42,878 nucleotides of DNA. It comes from Anaerolineaceae bacterium (GTDB lineage: Bacteria; Chloroflexota; Anaerolineae; Anaerolineales; Anaerolineaceae). A program made the position numbers and the translations under genes. The notes under the pieces were generated by a model. It saw nothing but the letters and a program-made list of their open reading frames with translations, had not been told where the DNA came from and ran no database searches. Every line of letters begins with the position of its first letter. Within the stretch, counting starts at the first letter, position 1. Positions 1 through 5,755 of this stretch are shown piece after piece. The DNA is taken from positions 1-42,878 of the forward strand of contig JAFGXF010000002.1 of the NCBI GenBank assembly GCA_016936755.1. The letters are read 5' to 3'.

Positions 1-51
<51 letters not shown>

Positions 52-139
52 ATGGAGTACTCACAGGTCCTGTCCCTGAACCACTTTACGGTCTACAGTT
101 ACTCTGCAACCTTCCGAACTGTGTGTACTACAGGGCTAG

Positions 140-168
140 ATTTTATCATAGCCACACCAGATTAACAA
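140..168 (-). promoter_or_regulatory. Possible promoter of the left tRNA-Val copy
   Basis: On the minus strand a TTGTTA -35-like box (163-168) and a TAAAAT -10 box (140-145) are 17 bp apart. The -10 surroundings (GATTTTATCAT on the plus strand, 139-149) match those of the right tRNA copy at 5755-5765. The leader from the -10 box to the tRNA is about 88 nt here and 12 nt at the right copy, so an 85-nt leader or another start point must be assumed. Confidence 0.35.
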
Positions 169-231
169 GTCTACTGTATATTCAGTACTTTTAAAAAATT
201 TTACTATCTCGATTTATTTAAAATCCGTTAT

Positions 232-1656
232 TCATTTCAATGCAACCGGCAAGAAGTACAATTTCCAAAAAGTCTCATCAGCACCCACATCACAATTTGA
301 TACTCCGACTAAATAGACTCTTGTATCACCATCAATATCCTTGGGTATATCTGTTCGACACTCTACAAGGTCTATCGCTTGTGAATTGTAATCAAGATGA
401 TAATCCCCTATAGAACTATCGATATATCTTGGATTGAGATTTGTAAAGTAAGGATTACCCAAATCTCCATTGTCAATATTTCCCCAAAATAAATTATTAA
501 CAATCGTAACGTCTCCATTGGGATTATTCTTCACAATCCCAATGGCACTATTACTTATGATGTTCGAATTTATTTGGCCAAAGATACCATCAGAAATATT
601 TATACCAATCGGACTATTATTTAGTGTGTTATGACTCATAAGAATATCGAGTGGACGCGATTGGCTATCATAAAAATCAACATTACGTTCTTTATGGTCA
701 GAAAAAAAATTATTGGTAATAGTGAGTTGCGATGAATCTAATGTGAAATTTGATGATAGTCCCTTGTCCGCCTCAGGGTTAATAATAACATTTCCATCGA
801 CGATTGAACTTGAGTTTGATGTCACAACAACAGAAGGGCCCCCATAGTTATATACTATTCTATTGGATAATAAAGAGTCATTGCTGGATGATATATATAC
901 AGCTGTTCCGATACAATATAAATCCTTCGCCGCATAATTATTATAGGAAATTATGTTATCCTGAATTATCGAATCACTACTCCAAGTAAATATTGCTCCG
1001 CCTCCCCCACATTGAATTCCTGAAGTGTCCGACTCATTTTGGTAAATATTATTCTTTTCGATAATTGCATTACCTATTGAAAATTCTATAGCTATAGCGC
1101 CACCACGTCCATCTCCTAGCGTGCTTCCTTTATTCGAATAGATATTGTTGTTTCGTATTTCAGGGTTACTATCATTAATCAGGATACCTCCTCCACATCT
1201 GCTCTCATGAGGGCATGGTGCAGTTGAGGCATTTCCATTTGTGATATTAAAGCCATCAATAATCGGTGAACCAGCAGAATTTATAGTAAATACCCTTCGT
1301 TCATCTTCTCCATTAATTATTGAAGGATAAGCTCTCGGGTCCTTAATTATTGGTCCACTTGCTTCACCATCCCATCCACCATATAAATGAATCGATTTAT
1401 CTAAATAAATCACTTCAGAACCAGAGTCAGCCGTGTACTGGCCTTCTGCAAAGTATAAATTATCTCCAGAGCCACTAGCATCGATAGCTGTTTGATACAA
1501 ACAAGGGATAGACTGACTACATGCGGTTCCAGACCCAACAGGGCTTACGAAATAATCCTTTTCCATTGGGGAAAAGTTGATAAATAGGTGTTTTGTGGAA
1601 CCTACCAAACCAAATAGTATTACTGGTAGAACGAGTATATATCCTGTTTTGTGCAT
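232..1656 (-). CDS. Secreted right-handed beta-helix protein with choice-of-anchor Q-like C-terminus
   Basis: The 474-aa product starts with a lysine and a hydrophobic stretch (about residues 5-20) typical of a Sec signal peptide. Many irregular N/I/G-rich repeats follow (for example IIDGFNITNG and IIEKNNIYQN, about residues 120-400), as in pectate-lyase-like parallel beta-helix proteins. Near the C-terminus, the pattern DYHL, AIDL, DIDGDTR and DVGADE resembles the choice-of-anchor Q domain. The last residues, FLPVALK, resemble the short LP-containing ends common in Anaerolineae secreted proteins; this last point is recalled knowledge. An AGGGAG ribosome site lies 7 nt before the ATG. The gene is AT-rich like the rest of this segment. 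A surface adhesin or carbohydrate-binding role is possible, but no catalytic motif was recognised. Confidence 0.75.
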   Translation of the reverse strand: MHKTGYILVLPVILFGLVGSTKHLFINFSPMEKDYFVSPVGSGTACSQSIPCLYQTAIDASGSGDNLYFAEGQYTADSGSEVIYLDKSIHLYGGWDGEASGPIIKDPRAYPSIINGEDERRVFTINSAGSPIIDGFNITNGNASTAPCPHESRCGGGILINDSNPEIRNNNIYSNKGSTLGDGRGGAIAIEFSIGNAIIEKNNIYQNESDTSGIQCGGGGAIFTWSSDSIIQDNIISYNNYAAKDLYCIGTAVYISSSNDSLLSNRIVYNYGGPSVVVTSNSSSIVDGNVIINPEADKGLSSNFTLDSSQLTITNNFFSDHKERNVDFYDSQSRPLDILMSHNTLNNSPIGINISDGIFGQINSNIISNSAIGIVKNNPNGDVTIVNNLFWGNIDNGDLGNPYFTNLNPRYIDSSIGDYHLDYNSQAIDLVECRTDIPKDIDGDTRVYLVGVSNCDVGADETFWKLYFLPVALK

Positions 1657-1775
1657 TTTGATTCTCCCTTTTACCTGGAACCCCTTGCCTTGGTGAAATT
1701 TCTACCCTTTCGAGTTATATATCAGTTCTTTAATGATGTAGAAGAAGCTCTTCATTCCATTTGACAAAATGAAAC

Positions 1776-2309
1776 CTACAACAAATTATGATTTCCCAAT
1801 TGTATCAAGTCAAGTAAATCCGAGCCAGAAGCACGAGGTACAACCATTTCATTATTAGCCATTTCATCGATAATATCATCTAAACGGTGAATGATTATCC
1901 CCCGCTCTTCAATGTATTTCAATTCCTCTTCATACTTCAAATGATGGATGACAATTTCGAGTGACCATTTTCCTGGATATAACTTACTTCGTAATTTTTC
2001 TTTCTTTTCATGGTGGAATTTATTTGTAATCCATTCCTCCGCACCAGCTCGTAGCTCATCCTCCGTTCTCGTTTTCGCATTATGGGGTCCTCGACCAGAC
2101 TCCTTTTGAATCGCTTTTGGAAGTGGGATAAGGTAACTCATCGGGCTTGTTGAGGCCTGAACTTCCACATGACGGCAGATTACTTCATCGTTTACGAAAC
2201 CAATTGCCAGTAAATCAATTTCTTGAACACCAAGCCTAATACCGCGAATGGTGAAGTAACCTTTTCGATTCAGCCATTCCTCAACTATTTCTTCTGCTAA
2301 TAGTGACAT
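1776..2309 (-). CDS. Small PD-(D/E)XK-like nuclease (Mrr/holliday-resolvase-like core)
   Basis: The start is set at the ATG at 2309 because GGGAG lies 5 nt upstream; an in-frame ATG at 2327 would add six residues without a ribosome site. The 177-aa product begins with a helix and the phrase WLNRKGYFTI. Then come E30-I-D32 and, after a strand, E49-V-Q51. An ExD...ExQ arrangement after a KGY segment fits the core of PD-(D/E)XK nucleases, where Q can replace the final K, as in Mrr-like enzymes. The rest is charged and helical with no second domain recognised. It is the third gene of an operon, 31 nt after the HEPN-like gene. Substrate and activity are unknown; the family call is from motif reading only. 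Confidence 0.6.
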   Translation of the reverse strand: MSLLAEEIVEEWLNRKGYFTIRGIRLGVQEIDLLAIGFVNDEVICRHVEVQASTSPMSYLIPLPKAIQKESGRGPHNAKTRTEDELRAGAEEWITNKFHHEKKEKLRSKLYPGKWSLEIVIHHLKYEEELKYIEERGIIIHRLDDIIDEMANNEMVVPRASGSDLLDLIQLGNHNLL

Positions 2310-2340
2310 CGTTGCTCCCAAATACATACACCAAAGACTA

Positions 2341-3096
2341 TTATTTATCCTCGAACATACTAGATATGTCAGTAAACCATGGGATGCTGAAAGCTTTGTG
2401 GTTTTGAAGGCTCTTTAATTCTATATCCTCTACCTTTACTTCGAGACCGGCAAGCTCATTCTTTTTTATTATCTCAGTGATTATTGAATCGATGAGTGTT
2501 TGCTCCATATTTACAATGTCAAATATTTCACGGATAAGAATTTCAAGTGTATATTTAATATCAATTGCTTTTAGTAACTGTAGGAGGTTGTTTATTTGGA
2601 TTGTTTCTGAAAAGAAAAACAAGTTGTTTGAATAATGTGTTCCGAATAAATATATAAGGGGATAATAATCATTATTGAATCGCTGATTGTTTGCCTCATT
2701 TTTTGAATAGTGAAAACCAAAGTTATCCCGTATCTCTCTTATCGCGTTTGACTTCGCGAAATATCTCTTAAGTCTTGACTGCGCGTTTTTAGCTTTATCA
2801 TCAAACCTAGATTGATATATCGAAGAAAAGCTCGATGAATAATAGGACTTTCTAAGATACTCCCATGCCTCATTTAATTTTCCAGCAAGTATTTGTATTA
2901 ACATAATTACGAGTGTATTACTTCCATGCATGTGAGCTTCATCAGTAGTATTTGTATTTGATGCCCAATATAGCATTTTTGTTAACCCGTTTAATTCATT
3001 AAATACATGCCCAAGTGTATGAAGGACTACATACTCATTTTCCGGTAAAGTACATAATTTATCTATATCCAGCTCACATCGTTTAATAATCATCAT
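2341..3096 (-). CDS. Uncharacterised helical protein with HEPN-type Rx5H motif
   Basis: The 251-aa product is predicted mostly helical from its composition. The one strong motif is IREIRDNFGFHYS, with R123, D124 and H129. HEPN ribonucleases carry an R-x4-6-H motif with a polar residue right after the arginine, and this sequence fits exactly. HEPN proteins are common toxins and effectors of abortive-infection and toxin-antitoxin systems; that is family knowledge. The gene lies between two nuclease-like genes with gaps of 25 and 31 nt, so a joint role is likely. The start has AAGGAT just upstream. No known partner antitoxin (for example a nucleotidyltransferase) is next to it. The overall family was not recognised and the HEPN call rests on one motif. 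Confidence 0.55.
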   Translation of the reverse strand: MMIIKRCELDIDKLCTLPENEYVVLHTLGHVFNELNGLTKMLYWASNTNTTDEAHMHGSNTLVIMLIQILAGKLNEAWEYLRKSYYSSSFSSIYQSRFDDKAKNAQSRLKRYFAKSNAIREIRDNFGFHYSKNEANNQRFNNDYYPLIYLFGTHYSNNLFFFSETIQINNLLQLLKAIDIKYTLEILIREIFDIVNMEQTLIDSIITEIIKKNELAGLEVKVEDIELKSLQNHKAFSIPWFTDISSMFEDK

Positions 3097-3121
3097 CCAG
3101 GTATCCTTTTCTTAGAAGCCT

Positions 3122-5020
3122 TTATGCTAGATTGATAATAAAGTCAATCGTGCTCCCCATTTTTGTATTGGTTAATACTGATGCTAGATTATCCCTTGAT
3201 TCACCATCAGGATAATAATAGACCCCGGCACCGACATAATTCTTCACCGTTGGTAATTCTTCATTAATACAATTCCAACATGCTTTCCAAGTCATAGAAG
3301 AATCTGTTGTGTGTGGGTGATGTAAAACAAAAATCGGAGCTTCAATTTTTGCTAGTATTGTGAATTCTTCTCGAACTCGTTTTCTCCATGGATTGAAGGT
3401 TGTCTTCTTCCCCCTCTCACTAAAGATTGCTAAATCATGGCAACCAAGAATCATCACTTTACCATATCCGATGTCGATAAAATGGCTACTGAGATTTTCA
3501 ATCCTTACCAATCCTTTTTCCTGGCCAGCAGTCGGGAGTGTTTTACCAGTCCAATGATATTTACCGGTTCTCAGGTCGAGCAAAGCGACTAATTCAGAAT
3601 GGAGGTATCGTATCTGTTGACTGGATGTAGAAATATCGGGTTTATCTGTATCTATGCCAATCGTTATTGAATCCGTAAACTTGGCTAAGTTGCTCTGAAT
3701 ATCTGGAATAATAACCTCACGGCATCTAACCTCAGCAATGGTAAATAGTTTCTGAATAACATCTTGAGGTGGATGCTTATTATCAAAAGTCCTTTTAATC
3801 TCACTAGGCCATGGGAAGGTTAAAAATGCACCAGGGGTAATTAAGCAATTTACTCGAGTATCAACTGGCCAATCATCACATATGGCTTTTAAGATATCAC
3901 TTGCATGTTTTTCATCTGCGTTCCATTTGTTTATAATAATGATTCTAGCCAGTTTTGGATTCATTTCATACTTGGTAACAACAGATACTTTTTTCGATGG
4001 GGATTTGCCGGAGACCATTTTCCCAGCCAATACATCTTTAAATTTACGTTTATCATCTTCGGATTCGGGATTTAAACTGCACCATTTGTAATCCCGTGAA
4101 TGAAGACGTATCGTGGGTTTCATCCTTCGAGTTATCGGCACTAAATCTCGAAGTGTATCGTACCAAGCTCTTTGTTCGTCACGATAACTTGGATTGGTAT
4201 CCTTCGCATCGATTTCATCGCATAACCTCATCCATCTATTAATATCAAAGCCTAAGGGTAAATCTATCGGGTAATGCAATAATGATATTTTCCTCGCCTT
4301 GGTAAAGTGTTGAGATTCATCAAATTCAATAAATGCATCAAGGGTGGGAACATAAAAGTCAACAGGGGGCAGGTTCCTCGTTCTTACAAATTCCTGGTTA
4401 TTTCGAAGACGCTGGAGATGGTCAAATATTGCAGTTAGTTCAGTTAAGTAAGGATGGTTAGGATAATCTTCAGGAAAAGTGCCGGCAGTAAGTCGATGGT
4501 TTACCAGAACAATTCCAAAGATATTCTCCAGCAACCTTTGAATTGTCTTTTTACATTCTTGGCATCGTTCGTTGTGGATTATTTCAGCACTTGAATTATC
4601 AATATGGTCTTTTTCAGTAAACCAGAATCTCTTCAAAACGGCCTTCTTTCCATACTCTTTTGAGATTCGAGTATTTTCAACGACTTTTTTCGTTTCCTTC
4701 CCACCACTGAATTGACCGGTAGATAACTCTCTTGCCTTTAAAGTTCCATCGTGCAATTCCTTTTTATCTTTTCTGATAATTGAGAATCCCCGATTTTCCA
4801 GGAATTCATTTGTCTCTTTTCCACCACTGAACATGAATGATGGCCATTCCTCACCATTTGCATGTATATTTGCTATTGAGACCACGTACTTAGGCGGATA
4901 ATCAACCATTTCATATATCAGAATAAACTTCTTTGATTCTCTGCCAGGTGGAACACCATCCCTCCGAATTTCAGCAAGTGCTTTTAATATATGCTCACGA
5001 TTTATATTTTGGGGTATCAC
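3122..5020 (-). CDS. ScoMcrA-N-like domain + PD-(D/E)XK/Vsr-like domain + unknown C-terminal domain
   Basis: The GTG start at 5020 is chosen because GGAGG lies 5 nt before it; the in-frame TTG at 5032 overlaps that ribosome site. The product is 632 aa. Residues about 5-85 match the N-terminal head domain seen in ScoMcrA-type HNH endonucleases: DGVPPGRESKKF, YPPKYVVSIAN and FSGGKETNEFLENRGF. A second FSGGKET follows at about 104-110. Next come a CxxC pair (C153, C156), then E194, and VDFYVP followed by FIEFDESQH (D221, E232-x-D234, H238). This resembles Vsr/DUF559-type PD-(D/E)XK cores. The C-terminal 290 residues include MILGCHDLAIF and HHPHTTDSS and were not recognised. It is the first gene of the three-gene operon. 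An invader-DNA nuclease is plausible but inferred. Confidence 0.65.
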   Translation of the reverse strand: MIPQNINREHILKALAEIRRDGVPPGRESKKFILIYEMVDYPPKYVVSIANIHANGEEWPSFMFSGGKETNEFLENRGFSIIRKDKKELHDGTLKARELSTGQFSGGKETKKVVENTRISKEYGKKAVLKRFWFTEKDHIDNSSAEIIHNERCQECKKTIQRLLENIFGIVLVNHRLTAGTFPEDYPNHPYLTELTAIFDHLQRLRNNQEFVRTRNLPPVDFYVPTLDAFIEFDESQHFTKARKISLLHYPIDLPLGFDINRWMRLCDEIDAKDTNPSYRDEQRAWYDTLRDLVPITRRMKPTIRLHSRDYKWCSLNPESEDDKRKFKDVLAGKMVSGKSPSKKVSVVTKYEMNPKLARIIIINKWNADEKHASDILKAICDDWPVDTRVNCLITPGAFLTFPWPSEIKRTFDNKHPPQDVIQKLFTIAEVRCREVIIPDIQSNLAKFTDSITIGIDTDKPDISTSSQQIRYLHSELVALLDLRTGKYHWTGKTLPTAGQEKGLVRIENLSSHFIDIGYGKVMILGCHDLAIFSERGKKTTFNPWRKRVREEFTILAKIEAPIFVLHHPHTTDSSMTWKACWNCINEELPTVKNYVGAGVYYYPDGESRDNLASVLTNTKMGSTIDFIINLA

Positions 5021-5139
5021 GAAAACCTCCAAGGAAGTTTCTAATACCAGTATTTCATACTAGATGATTCTATACCTTAATTACTTTCTCAACGGCGGCC
5101 ACATTCTTGGATTTGCTTGGCTCCACCGGTAACCATCCC

Positions 5140-5670
5140 GTAAAATAGTACCACAAGAAAGTGGAAACTTCTGGCAAAATTAGACCAGGAGTAGCCACAT
5201 GAAGCGATCGACATATAGCGAAACACAGATCGTCAACATATTGAAAGAAGCGGAGGAAGGTATACCGGTGGAAGAATTAAGCCGGAAACATGGTTTCAGC
5301 AAGAGTGCCTTCTACAAGTGGAAGGGCAAGTACAGCGGGATGGATGCAAGCGCTCTGAAGCGGTTAAAAGAGCTGGAGGAAGAGAATCGTCGGTTAAAGC
5401 AGATGTATGCCGATCTCAGTCTGGAGCACGCAGCTCTGAAGGATATCCTTCAAAAAAAACGATAAGGCCTGGCGAACGTCGAGAGTTGGCTGCGTATATC
5501 ATGGAAGTGCATGGATTGAGCGAACGTCAGGCTTGCAAGGTATTGAATATGAGCCGGTCGGTATTTCGTTATCAAGGACATAAACCGAATGACAGCGAAA
5601 TCAAGAAAGAACTGCTGGCGCTGGCGGAACGAAATCCCCGCTGGGGTTTTGGCAAGATGCTAGCCTACCT
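5140..5670 (+). mobile_element. Truncated IS3-family insertion sequence
   Basis: The remnant holds a complete orfA and the first 70 or so residues of orfB, in the -1 frame. The rve integrase (DDE) domain and right end are missing because the sequence turns into the tRNA-Val gene at 5670/5671. The left boundary was not resolved; about 5140 is a guess from the start of the untranslated leader (GTAAAATAGTACCAC...). It cannot transpose by itself as shown. Confidence 0.7.
5199..5465 (+). CDS. IS3-family transposase OrfA
   Basis: The 88-aa product has the usual OrfA layout. An N-terminal helix-turn-helix (STYSETQIVNILKEAEEG, then LSRKHGFSKSAFYKWKGKY) binds the IS ends. A leucine-zipper-like coiled coil (RLKELEEENRRLKQMYADL) follows at about residues 53-85. 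A GAGTAG-type purine stretch (CAGGAG) precedes the ATG. A run of eight A at 5452-5459, just before the stop, is a likely -1 frameshift site for making the OrfAB fusion. Since orfB is truncated, any fusion would lack catalysis, but OrfA could still be made and bind IS ends elsewhere in the genome. Confidence 0.85.
   Translation: MKRSTYSETQIVNILKEAEEGIPVEELSRKHGFSKSAFYKWKGKYSGMDASALKRLKELEEENRRLKQMYADLSLEHAALKDILQKKR

Positions 5671-5671
<1 letters not shown>
5453..5671 (+). pseudogene. Truncated IS3-family transposase OrfB
   Basis: In the -1 frame relative to orfA, the reading continues from the A8 slip site as KKTIRPGERRELAAYIMEV, then LSERQACKVLNMSRSVFRY and NPRWGFGKMLAYL. These match the HTH_21-like N-terminal part of IS3 OrfB. 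At about 5670 the reading runs into the antisense of the tRNA-Val gene, so the DDE rve domain of roughly 200 residues is absent. The break lies exactly at the tRNA 3' end, which suggests recombination or an assembly join rather than gradual decay. Confidence 0.8.
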
Positions 5672-5743
<72 letters not shown>

Positions 5744-5755
5744 AAAGAGAAAAGG

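Follow-up and report, generated by a model that had tools for sequence, protein, structure and literature searches.

The open reading frame ORF3 of an Anaerolineaceae bacterium encodes a protein in which a predicted Vsr-like PD-(D/E)XK nuclease is followed by a C-terminal nitrilase fold. Such a nuclease is coupled to a nitrilase-like module in a wide range of bacteria and archaea, and a ScoMcrA-type head frequently stands in front. The gene lies in contig JAFGXF010000002.1 of the draft assembly GCA_016936755.1, one whole contig of 144, whose 42,878 nt constitute the window analysed here. Three co-directional minus-strand genes, ORF3, ORF2 and ORF1, follow each other there with intergenic gaps of 25 and 31 nt. 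The coordinates, strand and gaps agree with the initial annotation of this stretch, which had proposed that the three genes form one nuclease-like operon acting as a defence system. As detailed below, the recurrent unit is the nuclease-nitrilase pairing of ORF3, and ORF1 and ORF2 are not conserved with it.

Domain architecture of ORF3

The AlphaFold2 (AF2) model of ORF3, obtained with a 35-row alignment, has a predicted local distance difference test score (pLDDT) of 86.9 and three modules are visible in it (Table 1). Residue numbers are counted from an in-frame TTG at 5032, four codons upstream of the GTG at 5020. The latter is the favoured start: a Met is found at the same column in 36 of 40 relatives and a GGAGG lies just upstream.

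The C-terminal module matches nitrilases over residues 358-634, with a Foldseek E-value of 1e-7 and a Z score in the structure comparison VIA of 14.6 to yeast Nit2 (207-210 residues). The whole-model VIA comparison covered residues 355-634 only and bears on no other fold in ORF3. In the AF2 model, the alpha-beta-beta-alpha nitrilase fold spans the full domain. The Glu-Lys-Cys triad is incomplete, the Glu being replaced by G401 in ORF3 and by Gly in all members of the module type to which it belongs (C1, see below), with K497 and C531 conserved. The replacement of Glu by Gly makes ordinary nitrilase hydrolysis unlikely in the C1 clade. The C-terminus of ORF3 is thus described as a predicted nitrilase fold, not as a demonstrated nitrilase enzyme.

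The middle domain was also modelled alone (pLDDT 94). Its top structural match in VIA is Vsr (1vsr, Z 6.5) and the third is the EDxHD homing nuclease I-Bth0305I (Z 5.6), while Foldseek with this domain alone returned no significant match. The best PDB sequence match of the middle-domain profile is AbaSI (E 0.026). Residues D225 and E236-x-D238-E239-x-Q241-H242 are kept in at least 90% of 70 homologues, the motif continuing to F243 (E-x-D-E-x-Q-H-F), and the RDEQRAWYD stretch (R284-D285-E286-Q287-R288 and following) is near-invariant in 70 homologues. The canonical Lys of PD-(D/E)XK nucleases is absent from the motif. Four cysteines in the region of the domain (157, 160, 271 and 318) are possible metal ligands. 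Structure match, profile and motif are each modest but agree with one another, and together they support a Vsr-type PD-(D/E)XK nuclease as the predicted identity of this domain.

The ScoMcrA-type character of the N-terminal head is supported by the sequences of relatives. The PADLOC model mREase_IV matches residues 19-101 of L016, from Desulfacinum hydrothermale (E 1.4e-5), and residues 8-91 of L043, from Neobacillus sp. PS3-12 (E 2.6e-4), and gives no significant match with ORF3 of this stretch alone; the head profile matches the N-terminus of ScoMcrA (5zmm) weakly (E 0.15). No function is known for this head in ScoMcrA (PMC6224610). A ScoMcrA-type head is also fused to DUF7662 on the Thermococcus plasmid pTBMP1 (L006, 5995-7245). 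The calls of a ScoMcrA-N-like head and of a PD-(D/E)XK domain that the initial annotation had made for ORF3 therefore hold, whereas the nitrilase domain had been missed; its further calls of a HEPN protein (ORF2) and a nuclease (ORF1) stand at the level of motifs.

Recurrence of the nuclease-nitrilase pairing

The profile of the ORF3 middle domain was scanned against the genomes of 84,980 species and gave 122 relatives, the best 80 of which were fetched with flanks of at most 9 kb each. A nitrilase-like module of type C1, T1 or T2 is paired with the nuclease in 52 of these 80 loci, either fused to it (40 loci) or encoded by an adjacent gene (12 loci). The spacing of the adjacent genes ranges from an 11-nt overlap to a 151-nt gap (e.g. 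0 nt in L071, 1 nt in L056, 4 nt in L079 and the 11-nt overlap in L027). Four C1 loci counted as adjacent (L020, L027, L034 and L053) resemble a single reading frame that is either frame-broken or genuinely divided in two.

The three types differ in their active-site residues. T2 corresponds to the Pfam family CN_hydrolase, with E-values of 4e-16 and 9e-12 for fused modules and 1e-15 to 7e-13 for separate genes, and keeps the E-K-C triad in nearly all members. C1, the type of ORF3, and T1 keep Lys and Cys and have lost Glu, which is replaced by Gly or, sometimes in T1, by Ala. The C1 module is not restricted to the Vsr-like nuclease. In another genome of the phylum, it stands behind an unrelated GIY-YIG nuclease (PF20815, E 3e-31) and is accompanied by a further C-terminal segment (L003, 679-2787), which is a second nuclease-nitrilase architecture. 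A quick tree of the nuclease domain, itself poorly resolved, shows at least 23 changes of partner type. The best-supported one places the C1 loci L067 and L069 within a mostly T2 group, with a Shimodaira-Hasegawa-like approximate likelihood ratio test (SH-aLRT) value of 96.

Two other families were encountered. C6 (about 260 residues, with CGE-x-N and NP-x-H motifs) is encoded beside the nuclease gene in L063, L074, L081, L085, L088 and L092; it has no nitrilase match and was counted apart from the 52 paired loci. T5 was considered as a nitrilase type and not counted: hhalign aligns T1 and T5 at 99%, but their motifs are not shared and both profiles are shallow.

ORF1 and ORF2 are not conserved with ORF3

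The 80 loci of ORF3 relatives yielded neither an ORF1 nor an ORF2 relative, a result that is strong rather than absolute as some of the fetched contigs are short and their flanks limited. In a set of 147 genomes from the same family, ORF1 was recovered in four other genomes and ORF2 in one, ORF3 had no match outside the source genome, and the genes were in no other genome together. Conversely, five ORF1 relatives have no relative of ORF2 or ORF3 within the fetched stretches, and two ORF2 relatives have no ORF1 relative nearby. The three-gene system of the initial annotation, in which a DNA sensor or nuclease would act jointly with an RNase effector (the Rx5H HEPN protein) and a small PD-(D/E)XK protein, draws on the tight co-directional spacing in this single contig. 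It was dropped in view of the zero co-occurrence in all these sets, the very outcome that the initial annotation had named as refuting it, and is now hardly credible; a single tight operon is insufficient for calling a system. The wider suggestion of an undescribed defence system survives in part: the genes are undescribed accessory genes and probably defensive, but as separate units. ORF1 and ORF2 would be unrelated passengers, separate accessory genes lying behind ORF3.

A functional link restricted to ORF1 and ORF2, for instance a small nuclease with a HEPN toxin, ORF3 being merely upstream, is favoured by their 31-nt gap and by the position of one ORF2 relative just upstream of a RES-domain gene (L101), HEPN-like proteins being frequently toxins. 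The five ORF1 relatives and two ORF2 relatives that each lack the other gene nearby speak against such a link, which appears very unlikely.

ORF1 is nuclease-like at the level of its motifs. It shares with the UPF0102/YraN family the pattern EIDLLA ... EV(Q), but differs in that its match to Pfam PF02021 (UPF0102; E 0.014, 16.2 bits) stays under the curated cut-off of 23.6 and the Lys of the ExK motif is replaced by Q or T. ORF1 is an independently mobile gene. An AbiP2 reverse transcriptase gene lies 142 bp upstream of one relative, with an insertion sequence (IS) element on the other side and a type IIG restriction-modification gene beyond (L011, 3789-5936). Another (47.5% identity) is carried by a Vibrio plasmid among an array of DUF3265 genes (L008, 7013-7543), which we take to be an integron cassette array; its surroundings also hold a phage abortive infection gene and a RelE/RelB-type pair. 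ORF2 gave no family match in sequence searches and is HEPN-like by motif. R123 and H129 of its Rx5H motif are invariant across three homologues, i.e. ORF2 and two aligned relatives. Its relatives adjoin the RES-domain gene mentioned above and a DUF2235/Tle1-type gene.

Distribution and genomic neighbours

The distribution of ORF3-type proteins is patchy, with matches in four of 400 genomes of the phylum (the source genome included) and in one of 147 genomes of the family. Single-protein pattern scans and alignment scans of viral contigs found no match. A plasmid CN-hydrolase match (H29) was rejected as unrelated, being located in a catabolic cluster.

Several C1-type loci have defence genes nearby: PDC-S02 lies 77 nt downstream in L016, and PDC-M16A, a type II methyltransferase, a McrBC-like gene and a GajB-like helicase are found in L018, L019, L023 and L015, respectively. 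At other loci of ORF3 relatives, the neighbours include matches to GajB-like, CARF and IetA models. On a Mucilaginibacter plasmid, the gene immediately after a DUF262 gene encodes a domain distantly related to the ORF3 nuclease, and a PLD endonuclease and a cytosine methyltransferase are encoded close by (L012, 2866-5441).

Relation to described systems

The initial annotation knew of no named system with this gene set, and no PADLOC model fits it. The comparison with PADLOC models that it had proposed was run and gave no significant model for the three genes, the best match being partial (E 0.0022). PADLOC likewise contains no model of the nuclease-nitrilase pairing. A survey of the open-access literature, as opposed to subscription papers and preprints, for nitrilases associated with phage defence or with nucleases retrieved only DRT1-type work. 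In Pfam, DUF7255 (PF23913) overlaps the ExDExQHF nuclease core and is above cut-off in L004 and L090, whereas ORF3 itself is below cut-off (E 0.015); the family has no functional description.

ORF3 shares with ScoMcrA and type IV restriction enzymes a head of the same type and a multi-domain plan of head plus nuclease. It differs from them by its nitrilase-fold domain and by a predicted Vsr-like nuclease instead of HNH. The N-domain of PvuRts1I is also Vsr-like (PMC4157451). The 5-hydroxymethylcytosine-dependent enzymes AbaSI and PvuRts1I resemble ORF3 in their Vsr-like PD-(D/E)XK catalytic domain, which in ORF3 is a predicted one, and in the presence of a second domain C-terminal to the nuclease. 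That second domain is an SRA-like reader, whereas ORF3 has a nitrilase fold there and an extra N-terminal head. Since no SRA, SBD or HNH domain was found in ORF3 by Pfam, other folds filling those positions, ORF3 resembles modification-dependent restriction enzymes in its plan without belonging to that group.

The nearest described parallel to the nuclease-nitrilase pairing is the nitrilase effector of DRT1, a defence protein joining a reverse transcriptase to a nitrilase; tetramerisation is described as the activating step of this effector (PMC13275509). DRT1 and ORF3 are both larger proteins, probably defensive, with the nitrilase domain at their C-terminus. This domain is joined to a reverse transcriptase in DRT1 and to a nuclease in ORF3, in which Pfam and PADLOC scans found no reverse transcriptase domain; moreover, DRT1 keeps the catalytic residues, in contrast to the Glu-less ORF3. 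The PADLOC model Drt1a matched a T2 relative at E 0.013 only.

Proposed function of ORF3

The reading that we favour, with roughly even confidence, is that ORF3 alone is the functional unit, a stand-alone and probably antiviral nuclease gated by a nitrilase-fold module for recognition and oligomerisation. ORF3 would act as an innate DNase without ORF1 and ORF2. Its nitrilase-fold domain would multimerise and sense a ligand (e.g. a modified base or a metabolite associated with infection) via the Lys/Cys pocket, and the ligand-bound module would license cleavage of invading DNA by the nuclease. For the sister type T2, whose Glu-Lys-Cys triad is intact, a catalytic module like that of DRT1 is possible.

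Several observations weigh against this reading. The Z values of the middle-domain fold are modest. C1 and T1 have no sequence match to Pfam CN_hydrolase, the nitrilase assignment resting for C1 on the fold and for T1 on motifs that line up with those of C1, hhalign giving this alignment a low probability. No nitrilase partner was recognised in 22 of the 80 loci and six more adjoin the C6 family, whose nitrilase nature is unproven. The tblastn searches of phages and plasmids gave domain-level matches only, none in phages and hardly any in plasmids, so that mobility is not evident. Finally, no single partner gene dominates among 143 neighbours, in a survey made without background control.

The roles of the two domains could also be exchanged. 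The nitrilase would then be the effector and the nuclease and head its sensor or regulator, infection leading to the destruction of an essential metabolite (abortive infection) as proposed for DRT1, whose nitrilase activated by tetramerisation provides the precedent (PMC13275509). This scheme fits T2, which retains the triad, better than C1. It is nonetheless unlikely for ORF3: C1 and T1 are without the catalytic Glu while the nuclease residues are conserved throughout, and C1 is paired with a different nuclease fold too, more in the manner of a recognition module. Somewhat less probable still is a role outside defence, ORF3 being a DNA-repair or mismatch-type nuclease, a Vsr-like housekeeping enzyme with a regulatory nitrilase fold. 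The closest fold is indeed that of Vsr, a mismatch-repair nuclease, and the family is spread over archaea and bacteria and rare in phages and plasmids. The patchy occurrence described above, the location in a low-GC island, the defence genes near several relatives and the varying partner modules on the nuclease tree all argue against a repair function.

A more specific role can be imagined for the nitrilase fold. It might read DNA bases that bear a nitrile or an amide, 7-cyano- or 7-amido-7-deazaguanine, which certain phages produce, with the Glu-less Cys/Lys pocket gripping the base and directing the fused nuclease. This idea is a long shot; if true, it would represent a new class of modification-dependent restriction.

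Nucleases coupled repeatedly to a nitrilase fold occur in many phyla of bacteria and archaea and are not represented in PADLOC, which makes them good candidates for an unrecognised family of defence proteins. Such a family would widen the role of the nitrilase fold in immunity beyond DRT1, and its triad-intact and Glu-less types constitute a natural set for addressing whether the module is an effector or a sensor.

Gene calls and genomic setting

Each of ORF1, ORF2 and ORF3 has diverged homologues and is therefore considered a real gene. The 31-nt gap holds if ORF1 starts at the ATG at 2309, and ORF1 homologues start at the equivalent Met.

Table 1. Coordinates of the three genes and of the ORF3 domains in the window
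Feature	Coordinates	Strand	Description
ORF3	3122..5020	-	Predicted ScoMcrA-head, Vsr-like PD-(D/E)XK and nitrilase-like protein; 632 aa from GTG 5020
N-terminal ScoMcrA-type head	4745..5020	-	Residues 5-96; supported by PADLOC mREase_IV on relatives and a weak 5zmm profile match
Vsr/AbaSI-like PD-(D/E)XK nuclease domain	4013..4576	-	Residues 153-340; predicted from motif, profile and fold
Nitrilase-superfamily (CN hydrolase) fold	3122..3970	-	Residues 355-636; predicted fold; Gly401 at catalytic Glu position, K497 and C531 kept
ORF2	2341..3096	-	251 aa; invariant Rx5H (IRDNFGFH), HEPN-like by motif only; outside the conserved unit
ORF1	1776..2309	-	177 aa; UPF0102/YraN-like (E-x-D-L-L-A ... 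H-x-E-V-Q); outside the conserved unit

The AT-rich segment between tRNA copies described in the initial annotation was recovered, the GC content being 0.36-0.39 across positions 1-5000 and 0.47-0.56 further on. A tRNA-Val gene is located at 5668-5744, and 52 nt identical to part of it make up the left end of the contig (1-52). The two copies bracket the AT-rich segment, the left one being truncated by the contig end. Next to the segment lies an IS3-family transposase remnant (5199-5710, plus strand), the second frame of which is truncated at the 3' end of the tRNA-Val gene; the contig may be mis-joined at this IS3/tRNA junction. The same AT-rich segment also encodes, at 232-1656 on the minus strand, a right-handed beta-helix protein (Beta_helix, E 5e-11) that is probably exported.

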